NCBI RefSeq assembly: GCF_040529065.1
Contig: NZ_CP132343.1
Coordinates: 4,092,001-4,156,000, forward strand
Length of the DNA: 64,000 bases
Direction of reading: 5' to 3'
Source: Xanthomonas sacchari
Lineage (GTDB): Bacteria; Pseudomonadota; Gammaproteobacteria; Xanthomonadales; Xanthomonadaceae
The notes under the pieces are model-generated. The model did not search any database, was not told where the DNA came from, and worked only from the letters and a program-made list of their open reading frames with translations. Of this stretch, positions 1,162-64,000 are shown one piece after another. The position numbers were made by a program, and so were the translations under genes. Numbering within the stretch: position 1 is the first letter of the stretch; every line of letters begins with the position of its first letter.

Positions 1162-1489
1162 TCAGGAGCAACAGCTTTCGCGCTGACGCGCGAGTCACTT
1201 TTCTTTGCTTGTGCAAAGAAAAGTAACCAAAAGAAACGCTTCAACACAGCCGAATGGCTGGTCAAGCACACCCGGGCGCCGCGCCCTACGCGCTGCGCGC
1301 TCCGGGTTCGCACTTGGCCTGGGCATTTTTCGACGGCACATCCATGTGCCGGCGAAAAACGGCGCGCTTCCTGCGCGCCGCCCCTTCGGGGTTTTCGCCC
1401 ATGCCAAGTGCCGCGGCTCACGGGATCCCGGAAAGCAAAGCAAAAGCGACAGCAAAAGCACAGCAACGGCAACGGCAACGGCAACGGCC
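1162..1489 (-). repeat. Structured intergenic repeat, copy 1 (terminal hairpin plus stem enclosing three hairpins)
   Basis: Non-coding element of about 328 bp, matching copy 2 at 21481-21781 in opposite orientation. Seen directly: a perfect 12-bp hairpin ACTTTTCTTTGC-TTGT-GCAAAGAAAAGT at 1197-1224; an outer stem pairing 1310-1324 (GCACTTGGCCTGGGC) with 1397-1411 (GCCCATGCCAAGTGC), 14 of 15 paired; and, inside it, hairpins at 1326-1359 (arms of 15 with one mismatch, loop TCCA), 1360-1380 (8-bp stem, loop TTCCT) and 1381-1391 (CCCC-TTC-GGGG). A GGCAAC microsatellite ends the element near 1465-1488. It lies between two minus-strand genes, with the microsatellite nearer the upstream phosphatase gene and the terminal hairpin nearer folC. 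ORFs read through it look spurious, because the conservation follows base pairing. Confidence 0.9.
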
Positions 1490-21480: not shown

Positions 21481-21781
21481 CTGGTGCTGGTGCTGGTGCT
21501 GGTGCTGTTGCTGTGCTGTTGCTGTGCTTTCGCTTTGCTTTTGATCTACCGGGTCCCCTCGGCGCGGCAGCCACGGCGGGCGAATACCCGAAGGGCGACG
21601 CGCAGGATGCGCGTCGTTTTCCGCCGGCACATGGATGTGCCGTCGGAAAATGCCCGACGTGGCTGCGAACCTGGAGCGCGTTAGCGCGGAAGGCGCGCTG
21701 CGGGGTGTGCTTTCTTTTGGTTACTTTTCTTTGCACAAGCAAAGAAAAGTGACCCGCGCCAGCGGAAGCTTTTGCTCTTGA
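21481..21781 (+). repeat. Structured intergenic repeat, copy 2
   Basis: About 301 bp, homologous to 1162-1489. In transcription order: a GCTGGT/GCTGTT microsatellite (21481-21525); an outer stem pairing 21567-21581 (GCAGCCACGGCGGGC) with 21652-21666 (GCCCGACGTGGCTGC), 14 of 15 paired; enclosed hairpins CCCGAAGGG at 21587-21595, an 8-bp stem with loop AGGAT at 21596-21616, and 21617-21650; and a terminal perfect 12-bp hairpin ACTTTTCTTTGC-ACAA-GCAAAGAAAAGT at 21723-21750. The outer stem differs from copy 1 in seven of 15 pairs, all compensated. It sits between two plus-strand genes in the same relative orientation as copy 1. The rest of the gap to fadH (21782-21935) shows nothing I can name. 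Confidence 0.9.
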
Positions 21782-63763: not shown

Positions 63764-63767
63764 CGAC

Positions 63768-63791
63768 AAAAAGTCCGACTTGCGTCGGACT
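63768..63791 (-). terminator. Intrinsic terminator between rpsN and rpsH
   Basis: On the minus strand AGTCCGAC-GCAA-GTCGGACT followed by TTTT: a perfect 8-bp stem, GNRA-type tetraloop and U run, 73 bp after the rpsN stop. This lies inside what is normally one continuous ribosomal transcript. Confidence 0.8.
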
Positions 63792-63863
63792 CGTTGTCTG
63801 AACGACACGCGGGCGGCTGGACCGCCCTGCCCGGCCCCGCGGACGGGACCGGTGCCGCTGGAA

Positions 63864-64000
63864 TTACCAGCTGGCCTTGCGCAGGCCCGGAACGTCGCCG
63901 TTCATGGTCGCCTTGCGCAGCATGTTGCGCCCCAGGCCGAACTTGCCGTACACGCCACGCGGGCGGCCGGACAGTTCGCAACGGGTGCGCTGGCGGCTCG
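63864..64000 (-). CDS. rpsN: Small-subunit ribosomal protein S14 (uS14), 5' part outside the window
   Basis: The last 45 codons are visible on the minus strand: [20 protein letters not shown], then [23 protein letters not shown] and a TAA stop. This is the zinc-free long form of S14, with a single Cys. The start lies beyond the window edge. Confidence 0.95.

Follow-up and report, generated by a model that had tools for sequence, protein, structure and literature searches.

The CsrA/RsmA consensus takes the forms CAGGA(U/A/C)G and (A/U)CANGGANG(U/A). REP and REPIN sequences are short, GTAG-headed palindromes associated with a RAYT transposase, and telomerase RNA possesses an H-type pseudoknot with a major-groove triplex. 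The closest described family to the repeat reported here is TwoAYGGAY (Rfam RF01731, clan CL00106), regarded in 2010 as probably an RNA and found in gut samples, gammaproteobacteria and Clostridiales (PMC2864571, in the part available). RMfam predicts that it is an sRNA bound by CsrA, and the same paper notes tandem G·A pairs (PMC4333381, excerpt); the available portions of PMC7657543, PMC11661157 and PMC11701678 deal with the extension of a helix, the stability of hairpins and two additional covarying pairs. Within such excerpts, the literature naming TwoAYGGAY makes no mention of a 3' pseudoknot or of dispersal, and searches of titles and the openings of abstracts, by sequence and by words, found no publication describing the repeat. 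RsmU, which derives from a 3' UTR, has been reported from Xanthomonas alone, and its authors found no homologue of CsrB or RsmX/Y/Z in that genus (PMC7694677, excerpt).

We analysed a window of 64,000 nucleotides (G000:C1:4092001-4156000, in which G000 denotes the source genome), part of a 4.96-Mb chromosome, for which a first-pass annotation had described two copies of an element conserved in fold and not in sequence. The element is related to TwoAYGGAY, from which it has diverged; it is dispersed, and the pseudoknot at its 3' side obeys a triple-helix code. A covariance model of positions 1-210 (R1), built from 33 copies with distinct outer stems, copy 2 being in the training set, matches both copies and nothing else in the window better than E 8e-6; a weak minus-strand match at 63765-63910 (17.7 bits, E 9e-4) may be a remnant or chance. 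The two copies are not the whole complement: an R1 search of the source genome finds 28 full-length copies, each at E <=1.2e-31, and a separate search lists short pieces consisting of the tail only or the hairpin only. The minimum free energy z-scores of copies 1 and 2 are -6.66 and -6.53 respectively, none of 100 shuffles being equally stable. The parts of the two copies are as follows.

1194-1435, minus: copy 1, whole RNA (cmsearch with R1, 183 bits, E 4.1e-51)
1177-1194, minus: hairpin I, beyond the pseudoknot on the 3' side of the RNA, with a GNNA loop on the minus strand (direct reading)
1194-1227, minus: hairpin II (b/b'), 15 pairs, its loop pairing with 1266-1271
1229-1236, minus: linker, reading UUUCUUUU on the minus strand; it mirrors the purine strand of hairpin II and is a putative third strand (mirror covariation)
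1237-1265, no strand assigned: nested small hairpin insertion, in a minority of copies (4 of 25 rows, alignment A1)
1266-1271, minus: pseudoknot partner of the hairpin II loop (UGU/ACA to CGC/GCG double changes elsewhere; G·U in L010)
1275-1309, minus: hairpin III with a GGA/GGA internal loop (alignment fold and pair counts)
1310-1324, minus: outer stem of copy 1, one arm
1326-1359, minus: hairpin A, loop CAUGGAUG on the minus strand, CsrA/RsmA-type (direct reading and loop class)
1360-1380, minus: hairpin B, loop CAGGAAG on the minus strand, CsrA/RsmA-type (direct reading and loop class)
1381-1391, minus: hairpin C, GNA triloop on the minus strand
1397-1411, minus: outer stem of copy 1, other arm
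1438-1488, no strand assigned: GCAA-rich simple-repeat tail on the RNA 5' side of copy 1 (similar variable tails at other copies)
21545-21753, plus: copy 2, whole RNA (cmsearch with R1, 232.1 bits, E 3.7e-65)
21567-21581, plus: outer stem of copy 2, 5' arm, pairing with 21652-21666
21596-21616, plus: hairpin B of copy 2, loop CAGGAUG (direct reading)
21617-21650, plus: hairpin A of copy 2, loop CAUGGAUG (direct reading)
21652-21666, plus: outer stem of copy 2, 3' arm
21706-21710, plus: pseudoknot partner of copy 2, UGUGC
21711-21718, plus: linker of copy 2, UUUCUUUU, putative major-groove third strand
21720-21753, plus: hairpin II of copy 2
21753-21766, plus: hairpin I of copy 2

Additional sequence accompanies some copies. 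A GCAACA-like simple repeat starts at the RNA 5' side (1438-1488, 21483-21545 and other copies), and similar units flank the opposite side in many. The nested hairpin of about 30 nt, with an CAGCCGAAGGCTG core, is inserted in the linker at 1237-1265 and in L014, L018 and L025, and the same hairpin sits inside hairpin II in L022 and L228, as if it were a smaller palindromic repeat using the element as a target. An extra stem of 80-100 nt is found near the tip of hairpin A, by the CsrA-type loop, in two species (L021 at G000:C1:2514133, and L236 in G657).

Both window copies possess an outer stem enclosing three hairpins, as first annotated, and direct reading of the arms (GCACTTGGCCTGGGC/GCCCATGCCAAGTGC and GCAGCCACGTCGGGC/GCCCGCCGTGGCTGC) agrees that they differ at positions 4-11, with positions 4-9 and 11 compensated. 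The assertion that seven compensated pairs are beyond chance is borne out by 69 distinct arm pairs from 105 parsed copies, 18 copies in one round and 6 in the next having been dropped as falling outside the regular expressions used. Positions 3-12 show a Watson-Crick pairing of 0.829, compared with 0.479 ± 0.019 when the 3' arms are re-dealt (maximum 0.554 in 2000 rounds). Position 10, described as unpaired, is so in both window copies but not in general, since it is A·C or C·A in 32 of these arm pairs, pairs normally in 26 and has some other mismatch in 11. Covariation was also assessed in an alignment of 33 diverged copies, in which 29 of 73 pairs have changed on both sides, including double changes at 11 of the 16 pairs of the outer stem. 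Standard pairs make up 98.5% of 2403 cells (87.5% when shuffled), double-change cells number 290 (91.5 ± 8.1 when shuffled) and the covariation score is 0.338, as against 0.132 ± 0.006 for shuffles and <=0.112 when the partners are slid; further pair types do not rise in these copies (60 versus 64.3 shuffled). Hairpin I occurs with 22 distinct stems and 99 of 101 cells Watson-Crick, under a selection procedure that itself favours pairing. The outcome that the annotation had set against its own claim, namely that most copies are stemless and compensated changes are not in excess, was looked for; instead, the parsed copies keep the outer stem and show a large excess of compensated change, as expected where fold and not sequence is conserved.

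Compensation can also be followed at a single locus. The intergenic region represented by L228-L246, which we take to be folC/cobC, contains orthologous copies in the same orientation that carry GCACTTGG/CCAAGTGC in G000, G653 and G663 and GCACGTGG/CCACGTGC in G655, G649 and G665, a compensated change from T-A to G-C at outer-stem position 5. Since these orthologues differ by compensated changes, compensation happens in place. Comparison of copies shows, on the minus strand, an outer stem that encloses three hairpins and has a middle nearly free in sequence yet kept paired. Two smaller details of the annotation require amendment: the terminal 12-bp hairpin is present, although it does not stand alone but belongs to the pseudoknot, and the reported T-A to C-G swap exists in the first plus-strand hairpin, which is the third on the other strand.

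The strand that had been read is the antisense of the one that folds, as indicated by mismatch asymmetry, GGA loops and the strand of the Rfam matches, and we rejected the plus-strand reading on these three grounds (strands as at copy 1). In the 69 distinct arm pairs, outer-stem mismatches on the plus strand comprise 69 A·C, 4 G·T and 60 others, and without position 10 the ratio of A·C to G·T is 37:4 (p 1e-7). An A·C on the plus strand is a G·U wobble on the minus strand, which points to the minus strand as the folding one. Of 109 Xanthomonas bodies, moreover, 91 fold more stably as minus-strand RNA, as do 83 of 129 copies from other taxa (p 0.0014). Most copies from Selenomonadales fold better on the plus strand within a fixed window of <=285 nt; the element looks shorter there, so flanking sequence may enter that window. 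An apparent exception in the pseudoknot, L010, is U·G on the minus strand, and RF01731 matches distant copies on the same strand as the proposed minus-strand RNA. Some clues are ambiguous as to strand, namely a UNCG loop (hairpin C, plus) and a GNNA loop (hairpin I, minus), and stems other than the outer one contain too few wobbles to separate the strands. To judge from these sequence comparisons, it is most likely the complement of the strand first annotated whose fold is functional.

That annotation was right in that the fold is conserved and missed both the CsrA-type loops and, on the 3' side, a pseudoknot with a triplex code. The loop of hairpin II (12-15 bp) pairs with bases across the linker to form an H-type pseudoknot, that is, two crossing helices, both with covariation support. 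In Xanthomonas, UGU/ACA is swapped as a pair for CGC/GCG; among 33 rows, L010 has U·G at two of three pairs and L336 breaks one pair. Over 87 distinct combinations from many taxa, the longest complement between loop and partner averages 3.83, against 2.65 ± 0.08. The U-rich linker, UUUCUUUU on the minus strand, mirrors in parallel the purine strand of hairpin II, and the lengths of the A-runs match across copies, with 2/2 in 5, 3/3 in 111, 4/4 in 18 and 5/5 in 3, being unequal in 30 of the 167 copies, many of which were fetched by patterns that fix part of both runs. When the pattern was loosened, leaving the stem free from position 3 and the linker from position 5 (39 distinct strings, some related), the identity of linker and stem from position 4 on was 0.85 versus 0.64 ± 0.03, a value that no shuffle out of 2000 reached. 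Both GAGAAAA with AAAAGAG and AAAAAA with AAAAAA occur in a single genome, G403, together with one mismatched combination.

A check that does not depend on the hairpin used 30 loci fetched by RF01731, of which 18, by eye, have the hairpin and a U-rich linker, 11 are without them and one ends at its contig. An automatic rule (run >=5) accepted 12; the 11 distinct cases analysed, which are hence run-selected, have a parallel run averaging 6.9, compared with 5.27 ± 0.31 when shuffled (maximum 6.45) and 2.3 with the linker reversed. Contacts within these matching runs are U·A (64), C·G (10) and G·U (2), the only types allowed, and the two G contacts sit opposite a U-A pair; G·TA is a known triplet type. 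The sequence of the lower stem varies freely (GTTAC, GTCGA, GTCCC, GGTAC, GTGAC, CCTAC). Taken across copies, the alignments show an H-type pseudoknot in which the U-rich linker repeats, in parallel orientation, the purine strand of hairpin II. Such a parallel code is what loop 1 lying in the major groove of stem 2 would produce, and the putative triplex would be a U·A-U / C+·G-C triple helix like that of telomerase RNA, with the linker occupying the major groove, and might cap or protect the RNA. A folded single strand of DNA would satisfy the triplex code too.

On the minus strand, the loops of two of the enclosed hairpins read CAUGGAUG, CAGGAUG, CAGGACG, CAGGAAG, CAAGGAUG, CACGGAUG and similar. 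Counted over 168 copies from a wide range of taxa, with Xanthomonas among them, A(N)GGA falls in a hairpin loop 194 times on the minus strand and 14 times on the plus strand; seven other motifs of the same form occur 10-29 times on the minus strand, and TNGGA and CNGGA, both of which overlap the A(N)GGA motif, 83 and 106 times. Of 111 parsed Xanthomonas copies, 99 carry at least two CA(N)GGA[UAC]G motifs; the other 12 have one, in 9 cases by a change of GGA to CGA. We rejected CsrA loops as a universal feature of the element, many families being without them. Bodies lacking CsrA-type hairpins include L059, L066, L071, L123, L126, L135 and L142; some of the genomes concerned have csrA and others do not, and L059, L066, L071 and L135 have ACTCGC(TTCG/TACG)CTCA-like motifs, equivalent to GC-GNA-GC on the minus strand.

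In the genomes examined, copies with CsrA loops are shown to go with csrA: the gene (PF02599) is present in 33 of 34 genomes with GGA-loop copies, compared with 21 of the 40 whose copies have no GGA hairpins (p 1.1e-5, uncorrected for relatedness), the sole exception being a 2.8-Mb metagenome-assembled genome (MAG). The rule was fixed before batch 2, genomes were classed from the copies in hand only, and batch 2 alone is not significant (22/23 versus 17/22, p 0.096). Where named, the GGA-plus genomes are proteobacteria, nearly all gammaproteobacteria, plus two Selenomonadales or Selenomonadaceae; the lineages compared are not independent, and relatedness confounds the test.

The first-pass annotation knew of no described structure for the repeat, which holds insofar as Rfam does not recognize the Xanthomonas copies tried, although the body is a diverged relative of TwoAYGGAY. 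Searching the window with Rfam 15 gives nothing at gathering score (43 bits for RF01731), and RF01731 finds nothing at E<=1 in five Xanthomonas loci and nothing in G000 under strict filters. It reaches its gathering score in Psychromonas, Pseudomaricurvus and a gammaproteobacterial MAG. Bridging loci were found above (L104, L107) and below (L109, L188) the RF01731 cut-off, where a model of the Xanthomonas body (R2) matches the same places with weak and rough E-values of 0.002-0.043. R2 detects no direct homology to the Psychromonas TwoAYGGAY copies, also missing L149 and L206; the link between Xanthomonas and TwoAYGGAY runs via intermediates. Two other families overlap or adjoin the element: in the Aggregatibacter copy L135, AaHKsRNA22 (RF02902) matches a portion of the body on the minus strand, and Bp1_684 (RF02421) abuts the 3' side of hairpin II on the same strand in the Burkholderia copy L142. 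Bp1_Cand684 is stated to have been validated by RT-PCR (PMC3521395, excerpt).

According to simple reading-frame calls, the copies of the source genome lie between genes. Single copies with co-directional neighbours are in the same sense in 7 cases and antisense in 5; the corresponding numbers are 10 and 10 in other taxa and 17 and 15 combined, the survey of other taxa comprising 49 loci, with 32 classed, 12 at an edge, 4 with far genes and 1 too short. With orientation random, read-through would leave about half of the copies untranscribed. A scan for the sigma-70 consensus found no promoter-like site at copy 1 or 2, and each has two terminator-like sites, not in excess of shuffles (1.3 and 1.2). 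Convergent doublets of copies are common. Between the copies of many doublets lies a palindrome pair of GTAGGAGCGGCTTCAGCCGCGAC type, which we presume to be REPIN-like (L012, L013, L015, L019, L023, L027, L261, L265, L269, L277 and L278); doublets L292, L301 and L090 do not have one.

At the folC locus, 8 of 20 genomes have the element one way and 8 the opposite way, two small genomes have a short spacer with no element, G666 has lost the element body, and no element was detected in the 725-bp spacer of G664. By eye, opposite-orientation spacers are not homologous between species groups, and a target duplication is possible but the sequence is simple. The 85-nt flanks of copies contain other repeats. 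Clustering of flanking proteins gave no neighbouring enzyme shared across loci, and no linked mobility protein was found; the largest cluster was exemplified by a reading frame inside the repeat, and the others inspected were syntenic genes or common families at few loci. Retrotransposition with a simple-repeat tail is not favoured, since the tail lies at the RNA 5' side and the 28 strong matches are full length.

The exact pattern of hairpin plus linker was found in at least 120 stretches, from Gamma-, Beta- and Desulfo-type proteobacteria, Selenomonadales, Clostridia, Lentisphaerae, Bacteroidota and a Nitrospirae MAG. Four clostridial loci (L095, L143, L165, L194) have palindromes of the same core with a loop of 0-4 nt and no obvious body, and may be something else. 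In a survey of the family at E 1e-12, with <=30 scored per genome, copies were present in 42 of 79 genomes and 31 of 53 genera; in even samples of the phylum, the exact linker was present in 7 of 299 genomes. With copy 1 as query, there was no match in 50,697 phage records and one partial match in 72,556 plasmid records, searches in which diverged copies could be missed and from which records near the source genome may be absent.

The best reading of these features, to which we give slightly better than an even chance, is that of a dispersed gene for an RNA decoy of CsrA, encoded on the other strand from that first annotated. An RNA gene would be carried as a dispersed repeat and give a minus-strand transcript, of which one CsrA/RsmA dimer would clamp two hairpins; given such clamping, the RNA would act as a CsrA/RsmA-binding decoy, or use CsrA for its own stability. 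The former is the best-supported function and about as probable as not. Its spread would most plausibly be due to a trans-acting mobility function, of which none was found. That the copies belong to a cross-phylum family of mobile RNA genes, defined by the 3' triple-helix pseudoknot and with a payload that follows the host regulatory protein (often a CsrA-binding module in csrA hosts and another elsewhere), seeding genomes with tens of decoys, is a tentative extension that we think possible rather than probable.

Under another explanation, a selfish repeat of RNA or DNA binds CsrA only to stabilize or chaperone its own transcript, with no benefit to the host. The random orientation, the patchy spread over family genomes and genera and the bodiless state of the folC locus of G666, where the body has been lost, would suit such a repeat, which we nevertheless think unlikely given how strongly the fold is maintained, orthologues included, and that all 28 strong matches are full length, albeit with short tail-only or hairpin-only pieces elsewhere. 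Slightly less likely still is a mobile DNA element of which one strand folds in the manner of attC or a HUH-transposase substrate, the fold being a recombination substrate with no transcript. The dispersal between genes, the lack of orientation bias, the convergent doublets, and the presence, absence and opposite orientation in different species at one locus accord with this, as does the existence of G·T wobbles and of T·A-T, C·G-C and G·T-A triplets in DNA too; a DNA element accounts poorly for the CsrA-type loops and their association with csrA, its relatives RF01731 and RF02902 are filed in Rfam as RNAs, no neighbouring enzyme is common to the loci, and the copy 1 query, within its reach for diverged copies, yielded nothing from phages and a single partial plasmid match.

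Were the element a cis-acting part of untranslated regions, regulating or processing the neighbouring transcript, its position in intergenic gaps (copy 1, for example, adjoins folC) and the Rfam type of RF01731, Cis-reg, would be explained; the random orientation to co-directional genes, 7 to 5 and 10 to 10, and the listing of TwoAYGGAY as probably not cis-regulatory in the available part of PMC2864571 make it very improbable. Least credible is a purely mutational origin of compensation, by which template switching between the arms of a quasi-palindrome perfects the stem without selection. Template switching can yield paired double changes in long inverted repeats, but it would not leave 69 A·C and only 4 G·T mismatches, nor does it explain the parallel third-strand code, the pseudoknot or the conserved loops, and as a sole cause it is already refuted by these features.

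The original observation was right and understated, and the repeat, mentioned there only as a source of spurious Xanthomonas reading frames, ties together three separately filed Rfam entries (RF01731, RF02902 and RF02421). Xanthomonas is reported to be without CsrB or RsmX/Y/Z homologues (PMC7694677, excerpt); the element would be a source of RsmA-type sites, given that almost all of the 28 copies of a single genome carry two such hairpins. The readable triplet code of the pseudoknot constitutes a structural prediction open to point mutation, and the distribution raises the question of how such an RNA spreads over several phyla without an enzyme of its own in sight.

Among known systems, REP, BIME and REPIN sequences resemble the element in being dispersed, intergenic and arranged as inverted doublets, and most doublets seen contain a REPIN-like palindrome pair; in contrast, the element is a multi-branched fold of about 210 nt, with no GTAG head among the inspected copies and no linked transposase in the clustering of proteins flanking element loci. 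CsrB, RsmX/Y/Z and RsmU of X. campestris share the GGA-loop hairpins of CsrA consensus, but have many sites in one gene, whereas the element has two per copy over 28 copies and no promoter was found. AaHKsRNA22 and Bp1_684 are labelled sRNAs filed as separate Rfam families, and their loci (L135, L142) have no CsrA-type hairpins by the loop rule used. TwoAYGGAY is alike in strand, in an outer stem that closes a multi-stem junction, in several copies per genome, and in two adjacent hairpins with ANGGAN loops within the closed multi-stem. The Xanthomonas loops are AUGGAU and AGGAU, the latter frequent, and not two AYGGAY; Xanthomonas copies differ also in a third, GNA hairpin and in hairpin III, whose GGA/GGA internal loop lies in a different helix from the stem with tandem G·A of TwoAYGGAY (PMC4333381, excerpt). 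The RF01731 model ends at the linker, and so the 3' pseudoknot and putative triplex fall outside it. For that part the nearest likeness, as far as the available accounts go, is to the H-type triplex pseudoknots of telomerase RNA and SAM-V, from which the element differs in being repeated and dispersed and in having a triplex deduced only from covariation, and with which it has in common that loop 1 and the purine strand of stem 2 run in parallel, in U·A-U and C·G-C triplets.
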